A stretch of 64,000 nt of DNA, taken from Byssovorax sp. (GTDB taxonomy: Bacteria > Myxococcota_A > Polyangia > Polyangiales > Polyangiaceae). The stretch is taken from positions 130,118 to 194,117 of the forward strand of contig JANYGI010000026.1 in the NCBI GenBank assembly GCA_025362495.1. Direction: 5' to 3'. The notes under the pieces are model-generated. The model was not told the DNA's origin, made no database searches, and saw nothing but the letters and a program-made list of their open reading frames with translations. This document shows positions 24,975-63,473 of the stretch, piece by piece (position 1 is the stretch's first letter; each line of letters opens with the position of its first letter). Position numbers and translations under genes: made by a program.

Positions 24975-25793
24975 ATGAACCCTATTTCCAGCAGGACGGC
25001 TTCATGCATGATCGTGGTCCTCTCGGCGCCGGGCTGGATGGGATGCCTCGGAGAGGCTGACGTGGAGGAGCTCGGGGTCGTGGCCCAGGAGGCCGAGGCG
25101 TCCAACGCGCTTGCGTCCAACGCGCTTGCGTCCAACGCCCTCACCACCAACGCGCTTGCTTCCAATGCGCTCCTCTCCAACGCTCTCACCTCCAGCGCGC
25201 TCACCTCCAGCTCCCTGGTGACCGACGCCCTGGGCGACTGGAAGGCGCGCTCAGTCTTCAAGTACATCGTGAGCTGCGCGCTGCCCGCCGACCGGCACAT
25301 CAGCGTCACCATCGACGGCACGACGTACGGCTACGACGGCGGCGTGGGCGTCGCGCAGTCGTGGGGCGACCCCAATGGACACTGCGACAACAACTGCGTG
25401 AAGTGGGTCTCCGGCTGCGTCCTCTCGCGGGTCAACTACCTCGGCGTGCCGGTCCCGCTGTCGATCCGCGGCAACCAAGGCGCGCTGTCCTCGTCCGCCA
25501 CCGAGCGGTCGGCCTACCCGAACCGCGAGGCGACCTATTACGGCGACATCTTCCAGAATCCGCAGCTCCGCTATGCGTGCCTGTCGCCCGGCGCCACGTC
25601 GGACCACCGGGTCTGCGGGCCGTCACTCCAGGGCTGCGTCATGACGGTGGTCGGCGCGTGCGACGACGCGTGTGACGGCGTCCACGCCGACGGGAGCTTC
25701 CCCAACTGCCGCGATGGCGTGCGCGACGCCAAGAACAAGTTTTCGCCCGGCGTCACCTCGTTCCCGGGGGCGATCACCGTCTTCCTCCAGTGA
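24975..25793 (+). CDS. Secreted protein with NALxS pentapeptide repeats
   Basis: A 272-residue exported protein. The N terminus (PISSRTASCMIVVLSAPGWM, then GC) is a signal peptide with a weak lipobox (WMGC). After a short acidic segment come nine pentapeptides (residues about 42-86): ASNAL three times, then TTNAL, ASNAL, LSNAL, TSSAL, TSSSL, VTDAL. The order N-A-L differs from the classical A-(D/N)-L-x-x pentapeptide repeat. The C-terminal 185 residues hold about ten Cys (DNNCVKWVSGCVLSRVNYLG; CGPSLQGCVMTVVGACDDAC) and look like an extracellular disulfide-rich domain that I do not recognise. The stop TGA overlaps the GTG start of the kinase gene (4-bp overlap), implying coupled translation. 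Promoter candidate at 24924. Confidence 0.75.
   Translation: MNPISSRTASCMIVVLSAPGWMGCLGEADVEELGVVAQEAEASNALASNALASNALTTNALASNALLSNALTSSALTSSSLVTDALGDWKARSVFKYIVSCALPADRHISVTIDGTTYGYDGGVGVAQSWGDPNGHCDNNCVKWVSGCVLSRVNYLGVPVPLSIRGNQGALSSSATERSAYPNREATYYGDIFQNPQLRYACLSPGATSDHRVCGPSLQGCVMTVVGACDDACDGVHADGSFPNCRDGVRDAKNKFSPGVTSFPGAITVFLQ
25098..25232 (+). repeat. 15-bp tandem repeat, 9 units, coding
   Basis: Nine 15-bp units beginning GCGTCCAACGCGCTT (first two identical, later ones diverged) encode the NALxS pentapeptides. The gradient from identical to diverged units suggests growth by unit duplication at the 5' end. Confidence 0.85.
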
Positions 25794-28700
25794 GGCGCGG
25801 CGAGGGCGCGAGGGCGCTCATCGGCGGCCGCTTCGCCGTCGACCGCGAGGTCGGCTCCGGCGGCATGGGCACCGTGTTCCGGTGCGTCGATCGCCTCGGC
25901 GGCGCGACGGTGGCGGTGAAGATCCTCCGCGGGCGCGAGGAGCTCGACATCCAGCGGTTCGAGCGCGAGGCGGCGATCCTGGCCGAGCTCTGCGATCCGG
26001 GGGTGGTGCGCTACGTCGCCCACGGCGTCGCGGCCACGGGCGAGCACTACCTGGCGATGGAATGGCTCGACGGCGAGGATCTCGCCGCCCGCCTCGCGCG
26101 CGGGGGACTCTCCTTTGCGGAGAGCGTCGCTGTCCTCCGTCGCGCCGGGGAGGCGCTCGCCGGCGTCCACGCCCGCGGCATGGTCCACCGCGATCTCAAG
26201 CCGCAGAACCTGTTCCTGGCCGGCGGCGACGTGGAGCGCCTCAAGGTGCTGGACTTCGGCATCGCGCGCGTCGCGGGGGGCTCGGCGCGGCTCACCCGCA
26301 CCGGCGTGCTCCTGGGAACGCCCGCGTACCTCGCGCCGGAGCAGATCCACGATCCCGGAATCCACGATCCGCGCACCGACGTGTTCTCGCTCGGCTGCGT
26401 CTTCTACGAGTGCCTCGCCGGTCGCCCCGCGTTCGAGGGCGCGCACGCCATGGCGGTGCTCGCCAAGATCCTTTTTCAGGAGACCCCGCGCCTCCGCGAC
26501 GCGCGCCCGGACGCGCCCGAGGCCTTCGATCGCCTGGTCGCGCGCATGCTCGCCAAGGATCCCGGCGATCGGCCGCGGGACGCCGGCGAGCTAGCCGCGG
26601 AGGTCGCCGGGCTCGGCGACGGGCCGGCGGCGACCGCGTCGATCGCGGCGATCGCGGCGCGGACCGAGCGGAGCCTGCTCGCGCCGCCCGGATCGACGCC
26701 GCTCCCGGATGAGGCGCCGGCGTCGCTGGGGCACCGCGAGCACCGCCTGGTCAGCGTGGTGCTCGCGGGCGATCCGGACGCCACGTCCGCGGATCTGGAC
26801 TGGCCCGAGGAGGATCTGGAGGCCGCGGTTCTCCGCCTCGGCGGGCACCTGAGCCTGCTCGCGGGCGGCTCGCTGGTCGTGACCATCTGGGGCGCGGGGA
26901 GCGCGACCGATCGGGCCGAGCGGGCGGCGCAGTGCGCGCTCGATCTCCGCGCCCGCTTCCGCGACCTGCCGATCTGCGTGGTGACGGGCCGCGGCCTGGT
27001 CTCGGCGAAGCTCGTGGAGGGTGCGGTGATCGAGCGCGGCGTGCGGGATCTCCGCGCGGCGCGGCCAGGCGAGATCGCGCTCGACGACGTGACCGCCGGG
27101 ATGGTCGCGGGGCGCTTTCAGGTCGACCGCGAGGGATCTGCCGCCGTGCTGCGCGGCGAGGGCGCGCGGCGCGAGATCACGCCGCTCCTCCTCGGCAAGG
27201 CCACGCCTTGCTTGGGGCGCGGCCGCGAGCTGGCGATCCTCGATGCGATGCTCTCGGGCTGCGTGGAGGAGCAGATCGCCAGCGCCGTGCTCGTGGTCGG
27301 CCCGGCCGGCTCCGGCAAGTCGCGTCTGCGCCGCGAGTTCCTCGAGCAGATCCGGCGGCGCGGCGACCGGATCACCGTCCTCTCGGGCCGCGGCGATGTG
27401 CTCGGCGAGGGCTCGCCGTTCGGCCTGATCACCGACGCGATCCGCCGGACGGCGGAGATAGCCGACGAGCCCGTCGAGGCGCGGCGCCGCAAGCTCGTCG
27501 ACCGGCTCGGGCGCCACCTCGCGGGCGCGGAGCTCACGCGCGTGGCTGCGTTCCTGGGCGAGCTCTCGGGGACGCCGTTCTCCCACGGCGACGATCCCGC
27601 GCTCCGCGCCGCGCGGGGCAGCGCGCTCCTGATGAGCGACGCGACCCGGGTCGCCTGGGAGGACTGGCTAGCGGCCGAGTGCGCCGCGGGGCCGGTCCTG
27701 CTCGTGCTCGAGGATCTGCACTGGGGCGACGCGGCGACCGTCAGCCTCGTCGACTCGACTCTGCGCAACCTGCGGGAGCTGCCGCTGATGGCGCTGGTGC
27801 TGGCGCGGCCCGAGGTGTACGCGCGCTTCCCCGCGCTGTGGGCGGAGCGCGAGGTGCAGTCGATCAAGCTCGGCCCCCTCGGGCGCAAGGCGAGCGAGGC
27901 CTTGGCGCGCGAGGCGCTGAGCGCGACGATCGACGCCGACCGCGTCGCGCGCATCGTCGAGCGAGCCTGTGGCAACCCGTTCTATCTGGAAGAGCTGATC
28001 CGCGCCGTCGTCGCCGGCCGCGAGGACGCGCTGCCCGACTCGGTGCTGGGCACCGTCGAGGCGCGCCTCGACGCCGAGGGCGACGAGGCCAAGCGCGTCC
28101 TCCGCGCCGCGGCCGTCTTCGGCGACCGCTTCACGAGCGGCGGCGTCGCCTCGCTGCTCGGCGGCGACACCAGCGCGACCCGCGCGTGGCTCGACGCGCT
28201 GACCGAGCGCGAGCTCATCGGCCCCGCCAGCGGCGCGGCGCCGTCGATCGACGCCCAGTACGCCTTCCAGCACGCGCTCGTGCGCGACGCCGCGTACGCG
28301 ACCCTCACCGACGGGGATCGCGTGCTCGGCCACCGCCTCGCCGGTGACTGGCTCGAGCGGACCTCGCACCCCAGCGCCGTCGCCGTCGCCGAGCACTTCC
28401 ATCGCGGCGGCGAGCGCGGCCGCTCCGCGCAGTGGTGCCGCCGCGCCGCCGAGCAGGCGCTCGACGCCAACGATCTACCCGCGGCCCTCGAGAGCGCGGG
28501 CCGCGGGGTGGAGCGCGGCGCGGCGGGCCTCGATCTGGGGATGCTTCGGTTGATCGAGGCGGAGGCCACGCTGTGGCGCGGCGAGCTCGCCCTCGCCGAG
28601 CGGCGCGGGCTCGAGGCGATCGATCTCCTCGCCCCGGGATCGGCCGCGTGGTTCAAGGCAGTGACCCGGGTCGTGAGCGCGGCGGGCAAGCTCGGCCGTT

Positions 28701-29683
28701 ACGATCACGTCGAGGTCTGGCTCGGCCCCGCGCGCTCCACGCCGCCCGAGCCGGGCGCGCGCAGCTTGCAGATCGTCTGCCTGAGCGAGTGCGCGGCGCA
28801 GCTCGTCTTCGGCGCGCGCTTCGCCGCGGCCGACGAGCTGCTCGAGGCCCTCGATCGCAACGCGCCGGATCCGGGCGCGCTCGAGGCCGGCGTGGCCGGC
28901 TGGCTCTACCAGGCGCGCTCGTTCCGGGCCTCGGCCGCGGGGGATCCCGCCGCCTGCGTCGAGGGCTTCACCGCGGCGCTCGCGGCGTTCGAGCAGGCCG
29001 CCGATCGCCGCAACGCGTCCTCGGTGCGAGGCAACCTCGGCTACGTGCTCGCCGAGCTCGGCGATTTCGAGGGCGCCGAGGCGGCGATGCGCGCCGCGCT
29101 GGAGGCGGCGCACCGCATGGGCCTCAACGACGTCGCCACGACGATCGAGCACAACCTCGGCCACGCCCTCGTGTACTGCGGCCGGCTCGACGAGGCGCGC
29201 ATCCTGGAGCAGCGCGCCGTCGAGGCGTTCCGTACCCAGGGGGATCCTCGCCTGGAGGGCGCCGCGCGGACCTACCTCGCCAAGGCAGCGCTCCTCTCGG
29301 GCGACGTGGAGACCGCCGAGCGCGAGGCGCGCGCCGCCGCCGCAATGCTGGAGATAGCGCCCCAGCTCCGCGCTCCGGCGGTCGGCGTGCTCGCCCGCGC
29401 GCTGCTCGGCCTCGGGCGTGTCGGCGAGGCGCTCGCCGCGGCGCGCGAGGCGGCCTCGGCCATCGACGCGCTCGGCGCGATCGACGAGGGCGAGTCCCTC
29501 GTCCGGCTCGCCTTCGTCGAGGCGCTCGCGGCGGCAGGAGAGACCGACGAGCTCGCGGTGGCCATCGCCGTCGCCCGCGATCGCCTGCTGGCGCGCGCCG
29601 ACCGGATCAAGGATCCGGCGTGGCGCGAGCGGTTCCTCACCTGCGTGCCCGACAACGCGAGGACGATCGCGCTCGGGCGGTGA
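25790..29683 (+). CDS. Ser/Thr protein kinase fused to AAA-type ATPase and TPR region
   Basis: A 1297-residue cytoplasmic signalling protein. Kinase domain about 11-270: glycine loop GSGGMGTV, Lys in VAVKIL, catalytic loop HRDLKPQN, DFG in VLDFGIARV, APE in YLAPEQ. Residues about 316-430 (LVSVVLAGDPDA...GGHLSLLAGGSLVVTIWGAG...CALDLR) resemble a degenerate class III nucleotide-cyclase domain without its metal Asp residues. An AAA/NACHT-like ATPase follows (Walker A GPAGSGKSR near 503-511; Walker B VLLVLEDLHWGD), then helical TPR-like repeats (about 870-1290). This is the PknB-cyclase-ATPase-TPR layout common in large actinobacterial and myxobacterial regulators. Start is GTG 25790, overlapping the NALxS gene by 4 bp, so the pair may form one sensing unit. 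Confidence 0.9.
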   Translation: MRRGEGARALIGGRFAVDREVGSGGMGTVFRCVDRLGGATVAVKILRGREELDIQRFEREAAILAELCDPGVVRYVAHGVAATGEHYLAMEWLDGEDLAARLARGGLSFAESVAVLRRAGEALAGVHARGMVHRDLKPQNLFLAGGDVERLKVLDFGIARVAGGSARLTRTGVLLGTPAYLAPEQIHDPGIHDPRTDVFSLGCVFYECLAGRPAFEGAHAMAVLAKILFQETPRLRDARPDAPEAFDRLVARMLAKDPGDRPRDAGELAAEVAGLGDGPAATASIAAIAARTERSLLAPPGSTPLPDEAPASLGHREHRLVSVVLAGDPDATSADLDWPEEDLEAAVLRLGGHLSLLAGGSLVVTIWGAGSATDRAERAAQCALDLRARFRDLPICVVTGRGLVSAKLVEGAVIERGVRDLRAARPGEIALDDVTAGMVAGRFQVDREGSAAVLRGEGARREITPLLLGKATPCLGRGRELAILDAMLSGCVEEQIASAVLVVGPAGSGKSRLRREFLEQIRRRGDRITVLSGRGDVLGEGSPFGLITDAIRRTAEIADEPVEARRRKLVDRLGRHLAGAELTRVAAFLGELSGTPFSHGDDPALRAARGSALLMSDATRVAWEDWLAAECAAGPVLLVLEDLHWGDAATVSLVDSTLRNLRELPLMALVLARPEVYARFPALWAEREVQSIKLGPLGRKASEALAREALSATIDADRVARIVERACGNPFYLEELIRAVVAGREDALPDSVLGTVEARLDAEGDEAKRVLRAAAVFGDRFTSGGVASLLGGDTSATRAWLDALTERELIGPASGAAPSIDAQYAFQHALVRDAAYATLTDGDRVLGHRLAGDWLERTSHPSAVAVAEHFHRGGERGRSAQWCRRAAEQALDANDLPAALESAGRGVERGAAGLDLGMLRLIEAEATLWRGELALAERRGLEAIDLLAPGSAAWFKAVTRVVSAAGKLGRYDHVEVWLGPARSTPPEPGARSLQIVCLSECAAQLVFGARFAAADELLEALDRNAPDPGALEAGVAGWLYQARSFRASAAGDPAACVEGFTAALAAFEQAADRRNASSVRGNLGYVLAELGDFEGAEAAMRAALEAAHRMGLNDVATTIEHNLGHALVYCGRLDEARILEQRAVEAFRTQGDPRLEGAARTYLAKAALLSGDVETAEREARAAAAMLEIAPQLRAPAVGVLARALLGLGRVGEALAAAREAASAIDALGAIDEGESLVRLAFVEALAAAGETDELAVAIAVARDRLLARADRIKDPAWRERFLTCVPDNARTIALGR

Positions 29684-29909: not shown

Positions 29910-29995
29910 GAGATCGGGTGCTCCTGCGGGCGGCAGCAGGTCGTCGGGAGGCGAGATCGGGTGCTCCTGCGGGCGGCAGCGGGTCGTCGGAAGGC
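29910..29995. repeat. Tandem direct repeat, 2 x 43 bp
   Basis: Units 29910-29952 and 29953-29995 both begin GAGATCGGGTGCTCCTGCGG and differ at two positions. A decayed third unit (GAGGTGATACTGCGGGCGGG at 30001-30020) follows. Non-coding by all signs. Confidence 0.8.
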
Positions 29996-30413
29996 GGCGC
30001 GAGGTGATACTGCGGGCGGGACGAGGCGACGCGGTCGGCAGGGTAGGTGGGATGGGGTTGGTGTCAACGTGGGTTGATGGCCGTCGCAATGGCGGTGATA
30101 GGCAGATCGGTATGAAATGTTTCGACGGCGGTTGTGGCTTGCGTGGGTTCCGGAGATCGGCGAGCCTCGCGTCGTTGGTAGGAATAGGCCGGTCGGGCGC
30201 GAGGGATCGGTAGGTCAGGCGAAGTGGAATGAGTCGAGCTCGGCAGCCCGGTCGTCGCAATCGAATGCATGTTGGGCGGTCAGCCCGGACCGGCGGGCGG
30301 CGGCCTCCACCCGTCTCGCTCAAGCGGGGTCGTCTGAGGTGACCGGCGGCGCGCGCGTGACGATCCCGGGCGACCGGGTTGCGTCCTGCCGCGCGCGCCG
30401 GTACCACTGAAAC

Positions 30414-48541: not shown

Positions 48542-49495
48542 TCAGGCGCGACGACGCGCGAGGATCGGCGGCATGGGCTCGGTGCTCGCCCAGCGCGGGC
48601 GCGGGGTGCGCGCCTGATCGAGCGCCAGCGCGAAGCTCGGCGCGTCGGCGAAGCGATCCTCGGGGCGCTTGGCCATGGCGCGGGCGATGACCTCGTCGAG
48701 GCCCTCGGGCAGAGGCGACGGCGCGATGGTCGACGGCCGCGGCGGATCGAGCGTGCGGTGCGCGGCGAGGAGCTCCTCGACATCGACGAGGTCGGCGAAG
48801 GGGCCGCGCCCGGTCACCATCGTGTAGAGCACGATCCCCATCGCGTAGAGATCGGTGCGCGCGTCGACGCGCGAGCCCGAGGCCTGCTCGGGCGAGAAGA
48901 AGCGCGGCGTGCCCATCGTCACGCCCTCCTCGGTGCTGGCGGAGAGCGGCTTCGGTGCGCGCCCGCCCGCGCTGCCGAGCACCTTGGCGAGCCCGAAATC
49001 GAGGAGCTTGAGCACGCGACCCACCGCGCCGGCGCGCGGCTCGCAGAGGAACAGGTTCGCCAGGGTCACGTCGCGATGCACGACGCCGGCCTCGTGCGCG
49101 GCGCCGAGCCCGGCCAGCGCTTGCCGCGCGAGATCGATGGCCTCGGCCGCGGGGAGCGCGCCGCGGACCTCGAGCTCCTCGCGCAGCGTGCGGCCGCGGA
49201 GGCGCTCCATCACGAGGTACGGCCGCCCCTCCATCGTCACCTGGAGATCGAGCACGGCGACCAGGTTCTCGTGCTCGAGGCGCGCCAGCGTCTGCCCTTC
49301 GAGGCGCATCCGATCGACGACGTCCGGCCGGCCGGCCAGATCGCGCTGCAGCAGCTTCACCGCCACCGTCTTGCCGAGCGCGCGGTGCTCGGCCTCGACG
49401 ACTTCGCCGGTCGCGCCGCGGCCGATCGGCGCGATCGAGCGGTACGGGGTTCCAACCAGTGGATCGAGGGCGATGGAGGTGGGGCTTCGGGTCAC
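48542..49495 (-). CDS. Serine/threonine protein kinase (soluble)
   Basis: A 317-residue Hanks-type kinase filling nearly the whole protein: glycine loop GRGATGEV, VAVKLL, DFG in LLDFGLAKV and the APE equivalent FFSPEQA. The catalytic loop reads HRDVTLAN in place of HRDLKPxN: the catalytic Asp is kept but Lys is Thr, a change seen in other myxobacterial kinases (often Ser/Thr), so activity is uncertain. No membrane segment or extra domain; only a short basic tail. GTG start 49495. Followed closely by other signalling genes on the same strand. Confidence 0.9.
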   Translation of the reverse strand: MTRSPTSIALDPLVGTPYRSIAPIGRGATGEVVEAEHRALGKTVAVKLLQRDLAGRPDVVDRMRLEGQTLARLEHENLVAVLDLQVTMEGRPYLVMERLRGRTLREELEVRGALPAAEAIDLARQALAGLGAAHEAGVVHRDVTLANLFLCEPRAGAVGRVLKLLDFGLAKVLGSAGGRAPKPLSASTEEGVTMGTPRFFSPEQASGSRVDARTDLYAMGIVLYTMVTGRGPFADLVDVEELLAAHRTLDPPRPSTIAPSPLPEGLDEVIARAMAKRPEDRFADAPSFALALDQARTPRPRWASTEPMPPILARRRA

Positions 49496-50075: not shown

Positions 50076-51587
50076 CTATCCGCGGAGCAACAGCACGTAG
50101 GCGGCGATCATCAGCGCGACGATCGAGAGCCCGATCGCGAGGCCGAGCGCGCCGCTCACGGGCGAGGTCGCGGCGCGGGCCGGCGGGCGCGTGAACGCGG
50201 CCGGGGCCGGGGCCGGGGCCGGAGCCGGGGCGAAGTACGCGCCGGGCGCGAGCGGCGGCGGCGCCACCACGTTCACGGCGGCCGCCGCGTGGCCGCGCGC
50301 GTGGGGGATCACGTCCGACGAGATGGACTTCTCGGTCCGCGCGAAGGCAACGACGGGCGCCGGCACCGGCGGAGGCGGCCCGAACGTGGGCGCCAGGGGC
50401 GGCGCCGCGAAGCCGCGCGGAGACACGGCGATGTCTGCCGACGACGTCCGCACCAGGGTGCGCTGATCATCGGACGAGTCCGGCATCTCGTCGTCGCGCT
50501 CGCGGCCTTCGCCGATCGGCGTCTTCACGCCGGGGAGCGCGCCGGCGCTCGGCGCGGCGCGCGGGGGCGACGGCGGAGGCACGTCGAGCGTCACCGCGGT
50601 CGGTCGCGTCGACGTGCCCGCGCCGTGCGCGTCGCCGCGCGCGAGGCCGACCCGCGTCTCGGGGATGTCCGGGAGCAGCTTGCGCAGCGACGCGCCGAGG
50701 TGCCGCGCCGTCTGGTGCCGCTCGGCGGGGCGCTTCGACAGCGTCTTCAAGATCAGGGCCGCGAGCCGCGGATCGATGTCGGGGGAGAAGCTCGACGGCG
50801 ACGGTGGAGGCTCGTGGATGTGCAGCACCGAGGTGTGGAGCGGCGTCTGCCCCTCGAACGGCAGGCGCCCCGTCACGAGCTGGAACAGGAGCACGCCGCA
50901 CGTGTAGATGTCGGCCCGCGTATCGACCGGCAGGAGCGCGCATTGCTCGGGCGACATGTACGCCGGGGTCCCGATGAACGTGCCCGCGCGCGTCACCGCC
51001 GAGGCCGGATCGAGCCGGGGATCGCGCCGGTCGCCCTGATCGGCGGCGATGGCGTCGGCCGCCAGGATCTTGGCGATCCCGAAGTCGAGCACCTTCACCC
51101 GCTCGCCGCTCGGGTGCGTGGGATCGGCGATCACCATGATGTTCTCGGGCTTGAGGTCCCGGTGCACGATCCCGAGCTCGTGGGCGACGATCAGCGCGTC
51201 GCAGACGTCGATCAGGATCCGCACCGCGCGGGCCTGCGGGAGCGAGCCCTGCTGCTCGAGCAGCACGTAGAGATCGCTGCCGACCAGGAGCTCCATCGCG
51301 ATGTAGCTGAGGCCGTCGGCCACGCCGTAATCAATGATTTGCACCGAGCAGGCGTGCTTGACGCGGGCCGAGGCCTTGGCCTCGCGCTCGAAGCGGCGGA
51401 CGAACGTGCGATCGTTCGTCAGGTCCTGGTTCATGATCTTGAGCGCGACCTCGCGCGGCTCGGCGGCCTGCTCGGCGACATAGACCGTGGCCATCCCGCC
51501 CTCGCCGAGGAAACTCTTGATGGTGAACCGGCCGGCAACCTGCTTTCCCACGAGCGCTTTGTGCTTGAAGGCCACGGGTCCGACCAA
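50076..51587 (-). CDS. Membrane-anchored Ser/Thr protein kinase (PknB-like)
   Basis: A 503-residue Hanks-type kinase. Kinase domain about 18-285: GEGGMATV, VALKIM, HRDLKPEN, VLDFGIAKI, YMSPEQ, all intact. A long Pro/Ala-rich juxtamembrane linker (about 300-475, with A-P-A-P repeats) leads to a C-terminal helix GLAIGLSIVALMIAAYVLLL and only two residues outside, so there is no sensor domain. Start TTG 51587 is chosen because GGGGAG lies 8 bases upstream; the next options upstream lack a site. Leads the run of kinase and hypothetical genes on the minus strand; the FHA protein at 52973-56464 may read its phosphorylations (inference). Confidence 0.87.
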   Translation of the reverse strand: MVGPVAFKHKALVGKQVAGRFTIKSFLGEGGMATVYVAEQAAEPREVALKIMNQDLTNDRTFVRRFEREAKASARVKHACSVQIIDYGVADGLSYIAMELLVGSDLYVLLEQQGSLPQARAVRILIDVCDALIVAHELGIVHRDLKPENIMVIADPTHPSGERVKVLDFGIAKILAADAIAADQGDRRDPRLDPASAVTRAGTFIGTPAYMSPEQCALLPVDTRADIYTCGVLLFQLVTGRLPFEGQTPLHTSVLHIHEPPPSPSSFSPDIDPRLAALILKTLSKRPAERHQTARHLGASLRKLLPDIPETRVGLARGDAHGAGTSTRPTAVTLDVPPPSPPRAAPSAGALPGVKTPIGEGRERDDEMPDSSDDQRTLVRTSSADIAVSPRGFAAPPLAPTFGPPPPVPAPVVAFARTEKSISSDVIPHARGHAAAAVNVVAPPPLAPGAYFAPAPAPAPAPAAFTRPPARAATSPVSGALGLAIGLSIVALMIAAYVLLLRG

Positions 51588-52976: not shown

Positions 52977-55900
52977 TTCTCGAAGAGGGCCCGCAGCCCG
53001 GCCGGGATCCGCAGCGACTCGTGAGGCACCTTGAGCGAGGCTGTCCCGATCACCGCGCTGAGCACGCACAGCCCCTGCCGCGGCAGGTGATCGAGCCAGT
53101 AAAGGCCGACGGTCCCCTCGGGGGCCATGCGCCGCATCAGGGGCTCCAGAGGCACCATGACGCCCTCGCGCCACCGCACCAGATAGACCACGTTGGCGAG
53201 GCGCGCCGGCGTGGAGAGGCCGATGCGGCGGCGCACTCCCCCGTCGAAAGGGCCAGTGTGATCGAGGTAATCGACGGTCTGCGCGTCGCCGTAGGGATCG
53301 GGATCCGTCTTCTCGACCGTGACCAGCGTCCAGGCCCGGAGCGGGCGCAGGGCGCGGAGGAGCGTGCGAGTCATCTGCTCGAGCTCGGGCAGATCCGCCG
53401 CGGCGCGGGCCTCGCTGTACTGACCGTGCGCGAAGCCGTTGCGCTCCGACTGCATCAGGTTGGAGAGCGTCTCGAAGGTCTGGTTGGAGCCGAGCTTGAC
53501 GTCGAGGATCTCGCGCGCCGTGGCGCCGAACGCGTCGCGCGCCGGATCGAGGAGCCCCGCGGCGGTGCGGGCGAGCTCGCGCCAGGTGCCGAGCGGATAC
53601 CCGGCGCGGGTGCCGAGGCGCTTGGCGAGGCGCACCAGCGGCTCCAGCGACGCCGGGGTCGCCTCGGCGCGGGCAAACACGGCAGCGAGAGTCGCCACCG
53701 CGAGGAAACGCCAGGTGCTCTCCAGCACGTCGAAGAGCATCTTCACGCGCTCGATCGCGCTCGACGCCGAGATGGCCGCGTGCACCGTGCCGGCGATCGG
53801 GTAGGGGAGCCCGCCGCTCAGCGCCGATAGCACGCCGAGGGCCTCGCCGTGCTCGCGGGAGAGCTCCGCCGCGCGCTCGGCGGCGCCATCCTTGTGCAGG
53901 ATCTCCCAGGAAACCGAGCGTGGCAGCTCCGACAGGCCATCGGTCACGGCCGGGCGAGCGTGCCAGTCGCACTGGACGTGACTGGCAATCTCGCGGGCCT
54001 CGACGCTCTGGGGGACGACGGCGGCGATCACGCCCGGCGCGAGCGCGGCCACCAGGGATCCCGGCGGCGCGTGGCCGGCGACGACGGCGGCGAGCTCGCC
54101 CTCGAGCGCGTCGAGGACCTGGGGGCCAATCTCGCGGAGCGCGCTCTGCTCTTCCACGGCGAAGAGCAGCGTCGTGCGGCGGGCGCTGGTCGAGGCCGCG
54201 AGCGCCTCGCCCGCGGTGGTGATCCGGGCCCCCTGTGCCACGTCGCGGAGGTTCTTCGCCGCTGTGGTCGTGGCGTCGGCGGGGACGCGGATCATCGCCG
54301 AGAGCGAGAGCTCGAGCTCGCTCGCGGCCAGGGTCGCCTCGCCGGCGAAGGACCATGTTCCGTGCGCGAGCGACGCCAGGCCGGCGCCGCGGCAGAGCCC
54401 CGCGAGCAGCACCGCGGCCGAGGCGATCTCGTTCGGCCGGCCCGGCGCGAGCACGACGAACGTGCCTTCGACGAGGCCCACGGCGAGCGTCGGCCAGCGG
54501 CGGTGAACGGCCATCGCGGCGCGCACCATCGGAGAATGTGACCCGTCGCTCGGCGTCGGCGAGGCGGGCGCGGCGCGGGAGCCGCCTTCTCCGGCGCGCA
54601 CCAGCATCATCGCGCCGGCGCCGCGCTGCTCCAGGAAACAGCCAATCTCGAGCTCGAGGCCCGCCCGGCCGAGCAGGCCAGTCCCGGGATCCACCGTGCC
54701 CGCGGCGACCGCCGGCGTGAGGTAGCGTCGGTCGGCGAGGACCGCGCGCATGTCGCCGATCACGATCGGCACGGCGTGGACGAGCGGCGCTTCCTCGCCG
54801 CGGGCGAGCGTCCGCGCGCCGACCTCGACTGGCACGCTGCACTCGTCGCGGCGCCGCAGCCACCAGCGGATTCCATCGTGGCGCAGCGTGGCCGCGAAGC
54901 GCGAGGCCACGTCGGGCACCACCAGCTCGTTGCGCTCGGCGCCCTCGCCGGCGATCCTCCCGAGGCGCAGCGGCCCCGGCAAATCCAGGCGGAGCTCGGT
55001 GACGGCGCCGTCGCGCGCCTCGATCCGCAGCCGATCGGGAGGATCGATGTCGCCCCGCCACACCGCTTGACGTCGCCAGAGCGTCGGCACCGGCGCCGTC
55101 GCCGCGCGGGTGGGGGGAGCCACGGTGATCGACGGAGGTGTGATGTCCGGCGGAGGTGCGATGACCGGCGGAGGTGCGATGACCGGCGGAGGTGCGATGA
55201 CCGGCGGAGAGGCGATGACCGGCGGAGAGGCGATGACCGGCGGAGAGGCGATGACCGGAGCAGGAGCGATGACCGGCGGAGAGGCGATGACCGGGACAGG
55301 CTGGATCGCGGCCGGCGGCGGCGGCGCGGGAGGCACGGGGAGGCGGGGTGGCGGAGAGGGCCAGTCCATGGGCATCGTCCCGTGGAGGCCCGCGGGGCGC
55401 GCCGTCGCTGTGTCGACCGCCGGTGCGGCGAGGTAGGCCACGACGCCGGCATTTCCCGCCTGGATCGCGGCGTCAACGGGCCACACCAGCGCGGCGCCCG
55501 GGTGCTCGAGGGCGACGGCGACGCGCAGCCCGCGCAGATCCGCCTCGCCGCCGCGGAGAGGGAACGCGCCGCGCCACACCACGCTGAACGTCTCGGCGTC
55601 GGCGTCGATGGTCAAGGTGTCGACGACGAGGCCGAGATCGCGGACCGGGTCCCGGCTCTCCGGGTGGACGCGGGCCCGCGCGTGGATGCCGGGGAGCTGC
55701 GTTTGCAGGCGCGCTCGCGCGGCGTGCATCCCATCGAGGACCAGCCACTCATCGCCGTGGAGCTGGGCTATCCGCTGGTCGTCGGGGGCGCTGTGAAAGT
55801 AGTCCCAGGCGAACGAGTCCGGGACCTCGAGAATGGCCCCCTCGGCGCGCTTCTTCGGCGCATCGCCGAGGAGCTTGCGGCGCTCGGCGCCGTAGCGCGA

Positions 55901-57448: not shown

Positions 57449-57940
57449 CTAGGGCGCGTGAGGCGCGGGATGCGCCGCCACCGGAGGCTGATTCTCCTTG
57501 ATGGCGCCCTTGCCGACGGCGATCGAGACGGCGGTCGCCGTCCGGTAGAGCCGCGGATCGAGCACGACCTGCGCCGCCTTGCGCGATGTCAAATCCACGA
57601 CGATGGGTGCCAGCAGATTGGCAACCAGGCCTCCCGCGGCGCCGCCCGAGGCGAGCGTCACGAGGACGGCGACGTTGCCGTCGGACAGGCCCGCGGCCCC
57701 GGCCAGATCGGTCGCGCCGGGGCGCGGGTACGTCGGCCCGAACAGCGCGCCATCCACGACCGGGAGGGCCACCGCCGGCGTGAGCAGCGATTGCAGGTGG
57801 GCAATCTCGCCCTCGCCTTCGCCTTGCAGGAAGGCAAAGCGGGTCTCCGAGGGGAAGCCCACGAGGCCACCTGGAAACTCGATGACGGTCGCCTCGGGGA
57901 TGTCGAGGGTGCCAAACCGTGTCGTCTCGATTCGAATCAT
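57449..57940 (-). CDS. fliW: Flagellar assembly factor FliW
   Basis: A 163-residue FliW. RIETTRFGTLDIPEATVIEF, then P-G-G-L-V-G-F, is the family start, with FAFLQGEGEGEIAHLQSL and VVLDPRLY in the usual order. FliW binds flagellin and also CsrA; free FliW relieves CsrA repression of flagellin translation. The C-terminal 15 residues are an extra Pro/His/Ala tail. ATG 57940 overlaps the csrA stop by 4 bp (ATGA), so the two partners are co-translated. Last gene of the flagellar run. Confidence 0.93.
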   Translation of the reverse strand: MIRIETTRFGTLDIPEATVIEFPGGLVGFPSETRFAFLQGEGEGEIAHLQSLLTPAVALPVVDGALFGPTYPRPGATDLAGAAGLSDGNVAVLVTLASGGAAGGLVANLLAPIVVDLTSRKAAQVVLDPRLYRTATAVSIAVGKGAIKENQPPVAAHPAPHAP

Positions 57941-58179
57941 TCCGGATCCTCCTGCGGAGCTGTGGCCTCGGCCGACAGCGCCCCTTTGAGCGGCGGTGAG
58001 CTCGTCGCCGCGGTGTTGGCGGCCACGATCGAGTCGTGGACTTCGCCGCGAAGCACGAGCACGCCGCGCGGCGCGATCACGCCGAGCCGCACGCCGCGCG
58101 AGCCTACTTCGGTCACCATGACCTCGATTCCATTCCCGATGACGATCCGCTCGCCCACGCGCCTTTGAACAATCAGCAT
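57937..58179 (-). CDS. csrA: Carbon storage / translational regulator CsrA
   Basis: An 80-residue CsrA, an RNA-binding dimer recognising GGA motifs in leader regions. The core LIVQRRVGERIVIGNGIEVM, V-R-L-G-V-I-A-P-R and the VHDSI box are family standard; core length is about 60 residues and a 20-residue Ala/Pro/Ser tail is added. Lies between flgL and fliW, as in many flagellated bacteria, where CsrA controls flagellin synthesis. Separated from flgL by 189 bp that include a hairpin, so it may have its own promoter. Confidence 0.93.
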   Translation of the reverse strand: MLIVQRRVGERIVIGNGIEVMVTEVGSRGVRLGVIAPRGVLVLRGEVHDSIVAANTAATSSPPLKGALSAEATAPQEDPE

Positions 58180-58310
58180 GTTGCTCGCTCCTCCCCGGTG
58201 TTGCGCGGGGACCTCTCGAATCGCGCTCCTCGTCCCCCCCGCGGGAGACGATGGTATAGCGCGGGGCACAGCGGTTCATCCATCAACAGACGGACTCCAC
58301 AAAGCAGGAA

Positions 58311-58338
58311 GCGCGCCAGACCTTCCGGTGTGGCGCGC
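58311..58338 (-). terminator. Hairpin downstream of flgL
   Basis: GCGCGCCA-GACCTTCCGGTG-TGGCGCGC: 8-bp perfect stem, with ACC/GGT pairing inside the loop. It lies 31 bp after the flgL stop; the minus strand continues TTCCTGCTTTG, moderately U-rich. It would separate the flgH-L transcript from csrA-fliW. Confidence 0.5.
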
Positions 58339-58368
58339 CTCGCTGCTCGCGGTCGCGATCGTCGCCCG

Positions 58369-59247
58369 CTACCCGTGGGCGAGGCTCGGGAGGCTGAGGA
58401 GCTGGCCAGTCACCGCGATGCTCTGCTCGTAGGCCGTCTTGGCCCGCGAGAGATCGGAGTACGCGGCGACGGGATCGGCCTCGACCGCCGAGGCGCGGGC
58501 CTTGGCGATCGTCAGCAGGGCCGAGCTCGTGATGCTGTCGGCCGATCGAAATCGATCGCCGAGGATCCCGGCCTGCGTGCGCGCATTGACCACCTGAGCG
58601 TGCGACGCCGTCATGTTGTCGATCCCCACCTGAACGCCGGCGAGGTTGTTGGTCGACAGCGCCGTCGAGAGATCGGCGAGATCCTGGAGCACGTCGCGCC
58701 CGCCCTTGGCGGTGAACGCCGTCGCGCCGCTGACGTTCGACGAGACGACGACGTTGTCGGCGATCTCCACCCCGATGACGTTGTCGTTGCCGACGAACGC
58801 GCCCGCGGCGTTCACCGGCGGGGTCGACGTGGACGTCCCGCCGAAGAGGTAGCCGCTGGTGCCGCGCGCGTTGGCGTAGCTCAGCATCGTGCTGCGGAGC
58901 ACGTCAATCTGGGAGGCCGCGATGGCGCGCTGGGCTGGGCCCTTGTCGCCGCTGGCCATGTCGATGGCGAGCTCCTGCGCCCGCACGAGCACGTCACTCG
59001 CGGAGGCCAGCGTCGTCTCGGCGAGATCGAGCTGTGAGCCTGCGCGGCTCATCGTCTCGTGGCGCGAGTTGAGCCGCGACGTGGCGCCGTCGGCCTGCGC
59101 CGCCGCCGCGTACGCCGCGGGGCCCTCGGACGGCGTCTGGATGGCCAGGCCCGACGAGGCCTGCGCGGAGGCCTTGGCGAGGCGTTCGGCGCTGTGCTGG
59201 CGATCGAGGGTCATCTGCGCGAAGCGCATGTTGTCGGTGATTCTCAT
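58369..59247 (-). CDS. flgL: Flagellar hook-associated protein 3 (FlgL)
   Basis: A 292-residue hook-filament junction protein of the flagellin superfamily. Starts MRITDNMRFAQMTLDRQ; N- and C-terminal helices (ERLAKASAQASSGLAIQTPS; LSRAKTAYEQSIAVTGQLLS) are the conserved D0/D1 coiled-coil parts; SGYLFGGT is the typical middle. ATG 59247 lies 2 bp after the flgK stop; a GTG at 59253 is an alternative. Acts outside the cell, at the hook tip after FlgK. No flagellin gene is in the window. Confidence 0.93.
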   Translation of the reverse strand: MRITDNMRFAQMTLDRQHSAERLAKASAQASSGLAIQTPSEGPAAYAAAAQADGATSRLNSRHETMSRAGSQLDLAETTLASASDVLVRAQELAIDMASGDKGPAQRAIAASQIDVLRSTMLSYANARGTSGYLFGGTSTSTPPVNAAGAFVGNDNVIGVEIADNVVVSSNVSGATAFTAKGGRDVLQDLADLSTALSTNNLAGVQVGIDNMTASHAQVVNARTQAGILGDRFRSADSITSSALLTIAKARASAVEADPVAAYSDLSRAKTAYEQSIAVTGQLLSLPSLAHG

Positions 59248-59249
59248 GG

Positions 59250-60617
59250 TCACATCCCCTTGATGAGATCGTCGAGGAGGCCGCTGATGGTGGAGATCAC
59301 CCGCATCGAAGCCTCGAACGATTTCTGGTAGCGAGTGAGGTTGATCATCTCGTCGTCGACCGAGACGCCGGCCGAGCTCTCCCGGAGGTTGTCGGCCTGA
59401 GCGACGGTGTTGTCGCGGAGCTTGACGTCGGAGTCGGCCGCCGCCTTCGTCGTGCCGAGCCCGCCGAGGATGGCCACGAAGGCCTGCTCGGGCGTGGACG
59501 CGCCGCCCTGCGGGGCCTCGCCGAGCATGGCAATCGCCAGCGCGTTGTCGTTACCGCCCGGGAGGTCGGCGGCCGACTTGGCCGCGCCGATCGCGTCGGG
59601 CTTGCCCGCGACGCTGGCGTCGACGGCCATCGCGTAGGCGGCGCCGGCGACGGCGGCGGGCGGCTTGAAGAGCGGCCTACCCGTCTGCCCGTCGAGCCCG
59701 TAGCCGGCCGAGTGAACGGCGTTGACGCTCGTGGAGAGGTCGTAGGCGTACTGGTCGAGCTGGGCCATGATCTTCGGCGCGTCGACGTCGCGCGCCTCGC
59801 GGATCCCGCCGAGCGCCCCGCCGACGACCTTGGTGGTGACGTTGTCAACGGCGCCGCCGGGGTGGCGGAACTTGATCGAGAGATCCCCGGTCGCGCCGAG
59901 CGAGACATCGACCGACGAGACGTGGTTGCCTTCGAGCAGCGTCGATCCCGACGAGAGCAGCGTCACCGCGCCGGTGCCGTCCTCGATCGCCGTGACGTCG
60001 ATGCGCGTGCCGACGTCGCGCACCAGCGTGTCGCGCTGATCGCGCAGCGAGTTGCTGTCGGCGCTCACGGCCGTGGCGTCGGCGATCTGCTGGTTGAGCT
60101 TGCCGATCTGGCCGAGCTTCTGGTTGAGCTCGCCCGCGGTGTCCTGGCCTCGCGCGAGGAGCGCGGCGCGCTCCGTCAGCAGCGACGCGGCCGTCGAGGA
60201 GATGTTGCCCGCGAGCTGCTGCGCCGAGGCGAGCACCACGTTGCGCGACGTGGCGTCCGCCGGGCTCTGCGAGAGCGCGTTCATGGCCGCGAACATCGAC
60301 GAGGTCTGATCGCCGATGGTCTGTCCCTGCGAGGGCGCGAGGATCTGCTCGAGGTTCGCGAGGGCGCCGGCGCGGGCCGTCGCGGCGCCCTGGAGGCCAG
60401 TCTCGGTGATGACGCGTGCGGCGGCGAAGCGGTCGAGTGATCGGCCGATGCCGGCGAGCGCGACGCCCATCCCGGGCAGCGTCTCGAGCTGGGCCACGCG
60501 CCGCGCGTAGCCCGGCGTGTTGACGTTGGCGACGTTCTGCCCGGCGATGTCGATGCCGGCGGCCTGGACCCCCATGGCCTGCCCCGACGTCGCCATGATT
60601 GCGAGTAGTGAAGTCAT
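59250..60617 (-). CDS. flgK: Flagellar hook-associated protein 1 (FlgK)
   Basis: A 455-residue hook-junction protein. GQAMGVQAAGIDIAGQNVAN then V-N-T-P-G-Y-A-R-R matches the FlgK N-terminal rod motif (NIANVNTPGY). The central domain (DQYAYDLSTSVNAVHSAGYG) and C-terminal helix (EEMINLTRYQKSFEASMRVI here as D-E-M-I-N-L) are as in the family. Slightly short compared with enterobacterial FlgK. Overlaps into flgL spacing of 2 bp; preceded by the flgN-like gene with 4 bp gap. Secreted by the flagellar type III export system. Confidence 0.95.
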   Translation of the reverse strand: MTSLLAIMATSGQAMGVQAAGIDIAGQNVANVNTPGYARRVAQLETLPGMGVALAGIGRSLDRFAAARVITETGLQGAATARAGALANLEQILAPSQGQTIGDQTSSMFAAMNALSQSPADATSRNVVLASAQQLAGNISSTAASLLTERAALLARGQDTAGELNQKLGQIGKLNQQIADATAVSADSNSLRDQRDTLVRDVGTRIDVTAIEDGTGAVTLLSSGSTLLEGNHVSSVDVSLGATGDLSIKFRHPGGAVDNVTTKVVGGALGGIREARDVDAPKIMAQLDQYAYDLSTSVNAVHSAGYGLDGQTGRPLFKPPAAVAGAAYAMAVDASVAGKPDAIGAAKSAADLPGGNDNALAIAMLGEAPQGGASTPEQAFVAILGGLGTTKAAADSDVKLRDNTVAQADNLRESSAGVSVDDEMINLTRYQKSFEASMRVISTISGLLDDLIKGM

Positions 60618-60621
60618 CTGT

Positions 60622-60897
60622 TCAACCCCTTATGGACATGCGAGCACCCGGTCGCGGCGCGTTGCGCGAAGGCCTGCGCCCGCCCGGATCCTCGTGGTGA
60701 AATGCGGCGAGCGCGTCGCGCAGGCAATCGCGCGCGTGGGCGAGCAGCACCGCGTTGTTGCGGAGCGCGTCCCGGAGGACATGCAGGCGCGGGCGGTGCT
60801 CGGGCCCGAGCGCGGGGAGCCCCTCGCGCAGCGCGCCGATGAGGGACTCTTTCTCTTCCGCGATGCGCACCACCTCGACCGCGTCGAGGAGGATCAT
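60622..60897 (-). CDS. FlgN-like flagellar chaperone (start uncertain)
   Basis: A small helical protein placed where flgN normally is, between flgM and flgK. The frame LLDAVEVVRIAEEKESLIGA and L-R-N-N-A-V-L-L-A-H-A-R-D resembles FlgN (Lys-Glu centre; L-x-N-N near the end), the export chaperone for FlgK and FlgL. ATG 60897 gives 91 residues, but FlgN-like residues (LAALTTLEALLIDERGAM) continue upstream to about 60954 with no ATG, GTG or TTG in frame before the flgM stop at 60963. The start, or the local sequence, therefore needs attention. The C terminus is Arg-rich. Confidence 0.6.
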   Translation of the reverse strand: MILLDAVEVVRIAEEKESLIGALREGLPALGPEHRPRLHVLRDALRNNAVLLAHARDCLRDALAAFHHEDPGGRRPSRNAPRPGARMSIRG

Positions 60898-60962
60898 CGC
60901 GCCGCGCTCGTCGATGAGCAGGGCCTCGAGGGTGGTGAGCGCCGCGAGGGCGTCGAGGCCGC

Positions 60963-61265
60963 CTAGGCCGCTGCTTCCAGCATCGCGTGGGCGATCCGAG
61001 CCGGCTGCACCACGTACGTGTTCGTCGCCAGCGCCTCGCGGAGCTTGTGAACCTTGGCGAGGTCCACCGGCGGGCTCGCCGCCGAGAGGCGCCGGGCCTC
61101 CGCGGAGATGTGCACCGTCGTCGCGCCGACGGTCTCGGCCTTCCGGGGCGCCTCGTTGGCTCGCGCGGTGGTCGAGCGCACGCTCGGCGTCGTTGCTTGA
61201 GTCGTTGTTTGGCGGGTTCGCGAATCGTCGGGGATGCGCATTGTTGGCCAGGGAGGGGGCGTCAT
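60963..61265 (-). CDS. flgM: Anti-sigma-28 factor FlgM
   Basis: A 100-residue FlgM, which holds sigma28 (FliA) until the hook is finished and FlgM is exported. The C-terminal sigma-binding half is clear: TTVHISAEARRLSAASPPVD, KVHKLREALATNTYVVQPAR and I-A-H-A-M-L. The N-terminal half is polar and disordered, as expected. ATG 61265 has AGGG upstream; ATG 61241 (MRIPDDS) would be closer to typical FlgM starts. Lies 54 bp after flgJ. Confidence 0.85.
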   Translation of the reverse strand: MTPPPWPTMRIPDDSRTRQTTTQATTPSVRSTTARANEAPRKAETVGATTVHISAEARRLSAASPPVDLAKVHKLREALATNTYVVQPARIAHAMLEAAA

Positions 61266-61319
61266 TCGCCGACCCTGTCATTTGTTCAACGGTCCCACCG
61301 TCATGATCTTGAGCGCGTG

Positions 61320-61637
61320 TCATCGTTTTACCTCTCGTGTCGTGGGATTGGCGGTCTCGAGCTGGTGCTGGCGATCGAGCGCGGCCTCGATCTGGCGCGC
61401 GAGGCCGAGCCCGCCGCCGGACTGGATGCCTTTCGCGAGCGCGTCGACGGCCATGGAGCCGTAGCCCTTCTCGGCCCCCTTGCCGCCGATCTTGGCGGAC
61501 TCGAGGAGCTGGTGGATGAAGGTCGTCTCGAGCTCTTCGGCGGCCCGGTGGAGGGCGCTCGGCGCCTCCTTCTTGTGCGGCTGCGCGATCGCGTGAGCGG
61601 CGCCGGGCGGCGTGGCGGTCATGGCTTTGATGTTCAC
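61320..61637 (-). CDS. flgJ: Rod-binding protein FlgJ (N-terminal domain only)
   Basis: A 105-residue protein equal to the rod-binding half of FlgJ: SALHRAAEELETTFIHQLLE then S-A-K and YGSMAVDALAKGIQSGGGLG, LARQIEAAL. It lacks the C-terminal muramidase of enterobacterial FlgJ, as in many Deltaproteobacteria, so another cell-wall hydrolase must open the peptidoglycan. The start GTG 61637 overlaps the flgI stop by 4 bp. Confidence 0.9.
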   Translation of the reverse strand: MNIKAMTATPPGAAHAIAQPHKKEAPSALHRAAEELETTFIHQLLESAKIGGKGAEKGYGSMAVDALAKGIQSGGGLGLARQIEAALDRQHQLETANPTTREVKR

Positions 61638-62743
61638 TGGATCACCACCTCTGCTTCGAGGGCCCCCGCGGTGCGCAGCGCCTCGAGGACTCCTGCGAGC
61701 TCGCGCGGCGACAGGCCGAGCGCGCCCAGCGCAGAGGCCACGTCGGCGAGCTTCGCCGCCGCGGGCATCAAGCGCACGTCTTTCTCCCCCTCGTTCACGT
61801 CGATGGTCGTGCGCGGCACGACGGCCGTGGTGCCTTTGCCGAACGGGGCCGCTGGCTGCGACACCACGGGGTTCTCCTTCACGACGATGGTCAGCCCGCC
61901 GTGCACGATGACCGCGGGCGAGAGCCGCACGTCGCCGCCGGCGACGATGGTCTGCGTCCGCTCGCTCACCACCACCCGCGCGCGGCGGACGACGCCGACC
62001 TCGATCTCCTCGAGCGCGGCGATGAGATCCACGGGGCTTTTCTGGTACTTCGCGGGGATCTTCACCACCACGGTGCCGCTGTCGTCGGCGTGCGCCGTGC
62101 CCTCGCCGAGGCTCTTGTCGATGGCCGCGACCGCGTGCGAAGCGACGGTGAAGCTCGGGGTGCGGAGCGAGAGCTTGAGCGCGCCGTCGGTCACGAACGT
62201 GGTCGGGACCTCGCGCTCGATGATCGCGCCCTCGGGGATCCGCGCCGCCGTCGTCGAGCCCGACTGCACCGAGCTGCCGCTCGATCCGCCGGCCTTGAAG
62301 CCGCCCGTGAGGATGTTGCCCTGCGCGACGGCGTACGTCTTCTGATCCGCTCCTTTGAGGAGGGTCTGCACCAGCACGCCGCCCGCGAGGGACTTGGCGT
62401 TGCCGATCGACGAGACGGTGATGTCGAGCTTGGTCCCGGTCTTCGCGAAGGCGCCGAGCGATCCCGTGACGACGACGGCGGCGACGTTCTTCAGGCGCAC
62501 CTGCCGGGGATCGACCTGCACGCCGAGGCGGCGCAGCATCGAGAGCACCGTCTGCGCCGCGATGGGAGAGGTGGTGTCGTCGCCGGTGCCGTTGAGCCCC
62601 GTGACGATGCCGTAGCCGAGGAGCTGGTTCTCGCGCACCCCCGAGACGTCGGTCAGATCGCGGAGCTTGTCGGCGCGGGCCGGCCCGGTGAGGGCGAGCG
62701 CCGCCGTGAGCAGCGCGAGGGTGATTGGCAATCTCTTGTTCAT
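61634..62743 (-). CDS. flgI: Flagellar P-ring protein FlgI
   Basis: A 369-residue periplasmic ring protein. Signal peptide to about Ala24 (GPARA-DK), then the hallmark LRDLTDVSGVRENQLLGYGI and V-T-G-L-N-G-T-G-D, ...RLGVQVDP...VKNVAAV-type region, and the end GVLEALRTAGALEAEVVIQ. Length is normal. Builds the P-ring around the rod in the peptidoglycan. Flanked by flgH (16 bp) and flgJ (overlap), all on one transcript. Confidence 0.96.
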   Translation of the reverse strand: MNKRLPITLALLTAALALTGPARADKLRDLTDVSGVRENQLLGYGIVTGLNGTGDDTTSPIAAQTVLSMLRRLGVQVDPRQVRLKNVAAVVVTGSLGAFAKTGTKLDITVSSIGNAKSLAGGVLVQTLLKGADQKTYAVAQGNILTGGFKAGGSSGSSVQSGSTTAARIPEGAIIEREVPTTFVTDGALKLSLRTPSFTVASHAVAAIDKSLGEGTAHADDSGTVVVKIPAKYQKSPVDLIAALEEIEVGVVRRARVVVSERTQTIVAGGDVRLSPAVIVHGGLTIVVKENPVVSQPAAPFGKGTTAVVPRTTIDVNEGEKDVRLMPAAAKLADVASALGALGLSPRELAGVLEALRTAGALEAEVVIQ

Positions 62744-62759
62744 GATCAGGGCTCCTCGG

Positions 62760-63473
62760 TCAAAGCGGGTTGAGCGTGTCGAGGATCCGGCCGAGCCAGC
62801 CCTTGCGGTTCTGATCGGCGACGTCCCCGCGGCCCGTGAACTCCACCTGGGCGTCGGCGATGCGCTGCGACGCGACGGTGTTGTCCTGCGCGATGTCGGC
62901 GGGGCGGACGATGCCGGAGATGTAAAGGTGGTACTCCTCGCTGTTGATGAGGATCACCTTGGTCCCCTCGAGGAACAGATCGCCGTTGGGCATCTCGCGC
63001 GAGACGCGCACCGCGATCTGGGCCGAGAGCTGGCCCTTGCGGGTGGTGCTGCCGTCGCCCGCGAAGTTCGATTTCCCCGCGTAGGAGAGCAGCTTTCCGG
63101 GATCGATCCCCGGGTGCGCCTTCGCGAGCGCGCCCATCACGCCGAGGAACGAGTCGACTCCCATCGTCGCGCTCGAGTCCTTGTTGAGCTTGGTGCTGGC
63201 GTCGCCCTGCGCGTCGGCGGCCTCGCTGATCACCACGACGACGACATCGCCCACGCGAACGGCGCGGGTATCTTCGAGGTAGCCGCCGGCGGCCTCGCTG
63301 AAGAGCGATCCCGGAGAGCGCTTGGCGGAAGGATCCTTCTGCGCGTAGGCGCCCGGCGTGTACGCGCGCTCTCGCGGGGTGAACGGGGCGATGTGCGGCG
63401 GGCCGCACGCCGCGAGGGCGAGCGACGCGAGAGCGAGAGCGAGAGTGAGAGTGAGCGCGGGACGAGAGACCAT
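62760..63473 (-). CDS. flgH: Flagellar L-ring lipoprotein FlgH
   Basis: A 237-residue outer-membrane ring lipoprotein. Lipobox LAAC with Cys23, then the conserved SLFSEAAGGYLEDTRAVRVG and D-V-V-V-V-V-I-S, NFAGDGSTTRKGQLSAQIAV, NGDLFLEGTKVILINSEEYH and LYISGIVRPADIAQDNTVAS. ATG 63473 is chosen for the signal peptide; its DNA contains hexanucleotide GAGAGC/GAGAGT repeats. First flagellar gene of the operon here; 40 bp after the end of the edge lipoprotein gene. No sigma54 or sigma28 promoter was recognised in that gap. Confidence 0.96.
   Translation of the reverse strand: MVSRPALTLTLALALASLALAACGPPHIAPFTPRERAYTPGAYAQKDPSAKRSPGSLFSEAAGGYLEDTRAVRVGDVVVVVISEAADAQGDASTKLNKDSSATMGVDSFLGVMGALAKAHPGIDPGKLLSYAGKSNFAGDGSTTRKGQLSAQIAVRVSREMPNGDLFLEGTKVILINSEEYHLYISGIVRPADIAQDNTVASQRIADAQVEFTGRGDVADQNRKGWLGRILDTLNPL

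Follow-up and report, generated by a model that had tools for sequence, protein, structure and literature searches.

Myxobacterial genomes encode hundreds of eukaryote-like kinases, most of which have no known input. In a 64,000-nucleotide stretch of a Byssovorax genome (the window), a kinase gene overlaps a gene for a small, probably exported repeat protein, which raises the question of whether the two proteins act together across the envelope. The initial annotation had read them as an outside component and an inside responder made together, possibly a new sensing or defence pair. Our analysis places the repeat protein in a family that recurs beside kinases, which makes it a concrete handle on kinase inputs or outputs.

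An overlapping gene pair

Both predicted genes, P0001 and P0002, are present (Table 1), and the codon overlap noted between them is confirmed: the TGA stop of P0001 (25791-25793) overlaps the GTG start of P0002 (25790-25792). This overlap is not general in the family. In relatives' loci, the gap between the lipoprotein and kinase genes can be anything between -3 and several hundred bases, and the kinase gene is sometimes the upstream one. A repeat of about 43 bp, present in 2.6 copies at 29910-30019, lies between P0002 and the next plus-strand gene.

Table 1. Features of the gene pair, in window positions, and of the split plasmid genes, in the coordinates of their own loci
Feature	Position	Strand	Remarks
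NAL-repeat lipoprotein gene P0001	24975..25793	+	272 aa, ATG start; relatives form a family
Signal peptide to conserved Cys24	24975..25046	+	Probable lipidation site; W at -3, lipobox atypical
Nine five-residue units, residues 42-86	25098..25232	+	From sequence, Tandem Repeats Finder and model
C-terminal domain (CTD), ten Cys	25233..25790	+	No family-library match, no PDB fold match
GTGA stop/start overlap	25790..25793	+	P0001 stop, P0002 start
Kinase gene P0002 (Ser/Thr kinase, cyclase-like region, AAA_16, TPR)	25790..29683	+	1297 aa, GTG start; no TM helix by hydropathy
Protein kinase domain, residues 16-262	25835..26575	+	PF00069, 149.2 bits vs cut-off 31.7; HRD motif
Degenerate cyclase-like region, approximate bounds	26735..27175	+	Weak: adenylate cyclase, E 0.034
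AAA_16 ATPase, residues 474-666	27209..27787	+	68.3 bits vs cut-off 32.6; Walker A
TPR region, best TPR_12 stretch, residues 1049-1107	28934..29110	+	TPR matches just under Pfam cut-offs
Split NG-repeat and CTD genes	L237 5533-6409; L238 5594-6558		Roseobacteraceae plasmids

The repeat protein is a probable lipoprotein with a five-residue period

P0001 had been described as secreted. It is better called a probable lipoprotein, because Cys24 is nearly invariant after the signal peptide. In an alignment of 64 sequences (P0001 and, from the 66 references left after filtering by length, 63), this column holds a cysteine in 62 and a gap in the other two. Only 33 of the 64 aligned members fit the loose lipobox pattern [LVIMFA]x[GASN]C, and P0001 itself has W at -3, but the conserved cysteine makes Cys24 a probable lipid anchor.

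The repeat runs ASNAL, ASNAL, ASNAL, TTNAL, ASNAL, LSNAL, TSSAL, TSSSL, VTDAL. The initial annotation's nine units and 15-bp period are both correct, whereas its strict xSNAL form is confined to five of the nine; NAL occurs in six, and the final three are degenerate. At the DNA level, the second unit repeats the first exactly, and the third carries two silent changes. In Tandem Repeats Finder, the array appears at 25101-25209 with a 15-bp unit (7.3 copies, score 106); a version with a 45-bp unit scores 137. Across the 64 aligned relatives, the spacing between N[AGSR][LIFM] motifs is exactly 5 in 262 of 293 cases, which places the five-residue repeat beyond chance.

P0001 resembles the Pfam pentapeptide repeat proteins in having a period of five residues in which Leu keeps a constant position. 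However, it differs in its N-A-L order and its predicted extracytoplasmic location, and no Pfam pentapeptide model matches it or the eight relatives scanned with it. In AlphaFold2 models of P0001 and a distant relative, the repeat forms short helices with no strands of three or more residues (pLDDT roughly 57-95). We therefore reject a classical pentapeptide beta-helix, in line with the earlier judgement that the repeat does not fit the A(D/N)LXX pattern.

The CTD had been called a Cys-rich domain of unknown family, and that description stands in the family libraries that we tried. Neither Pfam nor NCBIfam matches the CTD; over whole proteins, Pfam gave nothing for P0001 and seven of eight relatives, and one sub-threshold GLTT match for the eighth. 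The AlphaFold2 models have mean pLDDT values of 86.6 (P0001) and 84.6 (the distant relative), with confident CTDs in both. Sequence searches against solved structures led nowhere, as did structural searches with the lipoprotein models: Foldseek returned no PDB match at E ≤0.001 for either model, and VIA-align gave no PDB match at Z ≥2 for the P0001 model. Because VIA-align covered Foldseek's own candidates only, the models suggest, rather than establish, that the CTD is a new fold. Two of its cysteines, Cys137 and Cys141, are present together in 25 of the 64 aligned sequences and absent together from 39, with no mixed cases. This joint gain or loss is as expected for a disulfide in an oxidising compartment.

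The partner is a kinase without a predicted TM helix

P0002 is a Hanks-type Ser/Thr kinase, as judged by a Pkinase match above the cut-off and an HRD motif. The fuller architecture first proposed for it, with a kinase, a pseudo-cyclase, an AAA ATPase and TPRs, is borne out by Pfam for the kinase and AAA_16 parts. The TPRs lie just under the cut-offs, and the cyclase has weak backing: in a profile comparison with the PDB, an adenylate cyclase is the best match to this region but a weak one (Table 1), and a Pfam cyclase match is absent from P0002 and from the 15 members scanned.

Two known kinase classes come close to P0002. By E-value, its best NCBIfam match is the TOMM system kinase/cyclase fusion protein (TIGR03903), with which it aligns across residues 38-891. 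However, its score of 253.4 bits compares with a required 705.75, so that P0002 is not a member by this cut-off, and six partner kinases likewise fall under it. The PknB/Stk1-type PASTA kinases (NF033483) share the Hanks-type kinase domain, but P0002 scores 229 bits against a cut-off of 450 and has neither a TM helix nor a PASTA domain; its outside part is a separate protein.

By hydropathy, most of the partner kinases, like P0002, have no TM helix. A single predicted TM helix is found in five adjoining kinases (L119, L138, L142, L148 and L149). Proteins matching P0002 are abundant, with at least 92 to 99 per genome in seven genomes. Two more kinase-domain genes lie on the minus strand of the window (48542-49495 and 50076-51575) and are unlinked on the kinase tree.

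The lipoprotein family is recurrently linked to kinase genes

P0001 has matches in at least 35 of 193 relatives, and the lipoprotein profile matches at least 23 of 377 genomes of the phylum, both counts being lower bounds because few candidates were scored per genome. Paralogues are numerous: one Sorangium genome has 17 matches and another genome of its family has 15, counts in which some proteins are matched twice and some matches are to the repeat only. When named genomes were scanned, 138 relatives came up, and 77 loci were kept from these, mostly of Sorangium, Polyangium and Minicystis, with others from Archangium, Pyxidicoccus, Paraliomyxa and MAGs. In total, 85 family ORFs were found across 80 loci. 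One CTD (L096) lies on a contig of a MAG labelled Klebsiella pneumoniae, a label that is probably wrong, because the CTD is otherwise found mostly in Myxococcota among the loci examined.

The pairing seen in the window is conserved. Where both neighbours were called, 52 of 80 family members adjoin a kinase gene, compared with 68 of the 622 other genes of these loci that served as background (Fisher odds ratio 15, p 2e-25), with the caveats that related loci are not independent and that the simple gene caller missed some frameshifted or contig-end kinases. Clustering at 50% identity leaves 27 clusters, 16 with at least one kinase-linked member and 14 mostly linked. In the Byssovorax genome itself, a homologous kinase gene immediately follows each of the three intact copies. 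Among the papers within reach of our literature search, which took in few of the subscription papers, none dealt with this pairing or with the ADYC domain described below.

Linkage is frequent but not obligate. The initial annotation had set repeat proteins occurring alone against the idea of a pair, and such proteins do occur, which weakens the idea in part: for 28 of the 85 members, no kinase gene was called within a distance of two genes, although close to four of these (L082, L086, L097 and L098) there are sequences similar to kinase, ATPase or TPR parts that escaped the gene caller. Within the same distance, 21 members have both a long and a short kinase, 20 have a kinase of the window type, seven another long type alone, five a TM type and two a short kinase alone; the last two lie at contig ends.

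A trio of lipoprotein, long kinase-ATPase-TPR protein and short kinase occurs in Archangium, a Myxococcaceae MAG, a Nannocystineae MAG, Polyangium, Sorangium and Minicystis. Because it is shared by such distant Myxococcota, we suggest that the trio is old. The pair in the window looks like a derived version of it, a polarity that we infer, as the trees are unrooted.

Several loci deserve separate mention. Elsewhere in the Byssovorax genome (contig C231; L175 and L206), a 55-aa CTD fragment lies beside fragments that resemble the window-type kinase and ATPase. This is apparently a decayed fourth pair, the kinase fragments having been judged by eye. Three tandem lipoprotein genes stand between two kinase genes at L211 (8539-11319) and L212 (7131-9883), in two genomes of one genus. 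At five Sorangium loci, the conserved upstream genes look, by eye, like housekeeping synteny.

Lipoproteins and kinases have been re-paired

Along the lipoprotein tree, linked members have switched partner type (W, B/S or TM) at least seven times. On the kinase tree (105 sequences gathered, 77 with a kinase domain of the set length, 76 distinct ones used), the linked kinases are scattered, with 15 label changes, nine of them forced by starred branches. Since the partner kinases belong to several kinase clades, re-pairing has occurred, and the changes of partner type together with this scatter indicate that linkage has been renewed, not merely inherited. The L131 locus is an example: its lipoprotein is 59-68% identical to those of L126 and L136, but its kinase is only 36-37% identical to theirs and 63% identical to that of L087.

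Lipoprotein and kinase divergence correlates strongly over all 35 downstream pairs (r 0.81), a value that mixes species and paralogue effects. Within three genomes, r is 0.39, 0.33 and 0.67, which is weak in two of them; these tests covered members of up to 360 aa. A kinase family dedicated to the lipoprotein is rejected, because none of 20 sampled P0002-like kinases has a lipoprotein gene nearby, in a sample biased toward this outcome by its choice of strong P0002 matches without a known adjoining lipoprotein.

A second lipoprotein family shows the same habit. Two NG-repeat lipoproteins of the Byssovorax genome lie downstream of kinase-nSTAND1-FGE genes and belong to a family with the ADYC domain (PF20032), which was assigned by a Pfam match in P0003 and in the others by phmmer similarity to P0003. 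Like P0001, these proteins have a lipoprotein-like signal, N-rich five-residue repeats, a Cys-bearing C-terminal domain and an adjoining kinase gene. Of the 15 regions examined, 9 have the kinase gene immediately ahead of the lipoprotein gene and in the same orientation. The ADYC proteins differ in that their C-terminal domain is of another family and their partner is a kinase-nSTAND1-FGE protein (both added domains confirmed by Pfam in two of the nine linked genes).

Kinase-free copies occur on plasmids and viral contigs

Two Roseobacteraceae plasmids carry a small gene for a secreted NG-repeat protein followed by a separate CTD gene (Table 1). The profile search detected both repeat and CTD on one plasmid and the CTD alone on the other, and no kinase was found in the annotated stretch near the split genes. 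On three viral contigs from IMG/VR (L239, L240 and L241), the CTD is a lone protein with a lipoprotein-like signal. One of these genes has SSB on one side and a UvsX-like recombinase on the other and sits within a replication module that also includes a DNA polymerase. In a tree that left out three lipoprotein rows, the viral CTDs belong to a starred set of ten rows with four kinase-linked and three unlinked host proteins, and the grouping of the three viral rows has a support of only 18. The presence of the CTD in viral contigs, combined with its lack of Pfam, NCBIfam or, in two models, PDB fold matches, makes it a good target for structural and phage studies.

Phage superinfection-exclusion lipoproteins are small and phage-encoded, as are the three viral-contig proteins. 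Among annotated phage records, we found no match in 50,697 phages. P0001 matches no PADLOC model. P0002 matches 36 PADLOC families, the best 25 of which fall within about residues 7-316, its kinase part; by this test, the pair does not belong to a known anti-phage system in PADLOC.

Possible roles of the pair

We tentatively favour, with somewhat less than even confidence, the reading that the P0001 family is an envelope recognition lipoprotein that has been recruited to kinase signalling and passes its state to the kinase. In P0001, a lipid anchor would be joined through an acidic linker to a short stalk of NAL repeats and a disulfide-rich recognition domain, and the protein would work at the envelope with the co-encoded cytoplasmic kinase. 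Binding of a ligand to the lipoprotein, or a disturbance of the envelope there, would then alter how active the kinase-ATPase-TPR protein is. Partners with a TM helix would be affected directly, and those that lack one by way of a presumed membrane link. The strongest reasons for this reading are the recurrent linkage with renewed partners and the TM kinases among them; the three intact Byssovorax copies, the trio, the ADYC parallel and the Cys137/Cys141 pattern also favour it. Its weakest point is the link across the membrane, which is missing for P0002 and most partners. It is further weakened by the 28 kinase-free members, the plasmid and viral copies, the weak within-genome co-divergence and the 20 kinases that lack a lipoprotein neighbour. 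Lipidation, surface location, ligand binding and an outside-to-inside signal are presumptive elements of this reading, as is the sensing or defence role first proposed, for which the phage copies are a lead only.

The order of events could be reversed. The kinase may sense a cytoplasmic cue through its ATPase-TPR and cyclase-like parts, and the lipoprotein would then be a kinase-controlled product, for example an adhesin or a shield on the envelope. We consider this somewhat unlikely, but it and envelope recognition are about equally good fits to the soluble kinases and the stand-alone heads. The kinase architecture is common without the lipoprotein, both in the genome-wide counts and among the 20 sampled kinases, which suggests that it works alone; most partner kinases are soluble; and the repeat-CTD unit also stands alone on plasmids and viral contigs. 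On its own, however, control by the kinase leaves unexplained why the lipoprotein repeatedly gains partners of different clades, and why TM kinases are among them. Re-pairing also bears on a more sceptical view, in which an old pair was simply copied many times along with large kinase families and the adjacency carries no function. Kinases are indeed common even beside the background genes of these loci, paralogues are numerous, and near-orthologues inflate the counts, as the clustering makes clear. We nevertheless judge adjacency without function improbable, given that kinases of other clades have been acquired, that gene order and orientation change while the kinase is kept, and that the unrelated ADYC family has the same habit.

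A role tied to phages seems equally hard to favour. The envelope lipoprotein could be a factor of the superinfection-exclusion type or a receptor that triggers the kinase, and phages would carry the CTD either as an exclusion lipoprotein of their own or to act as a decoy. The lone lipoprotein-like CTDs of the viral contigs, one of them inside a replication module, and their place in the set shared with linked and unlinked host proteins are consistent with such a role, whereas the annotated phages, the PADLOC results and the low support for the viral grouping argue against it, and we hold it to be quite unlikely. We would also give little weight, at present, to a broader version of envelope recognition, namely that Asn-rich five-residue stalks with interchangeable heads (CTD or ADYC), plugged into Ser/Thr kinase-ATPase proteins, may form a modular class of myxobacterial receptors that senses phages or neighbours, with phages using the isolated head for exclusion or as a decoy.

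Other features of the window

Further downstream, at 57449-63473, lies a gene run that we take, by eye, to be flagellar and associated genes (FliW, CsrA, hook and ring proteins). An 18-bp repeat at 55133-55294, with nine copies and 91% matches, is contained in a long minus-strand ORF.
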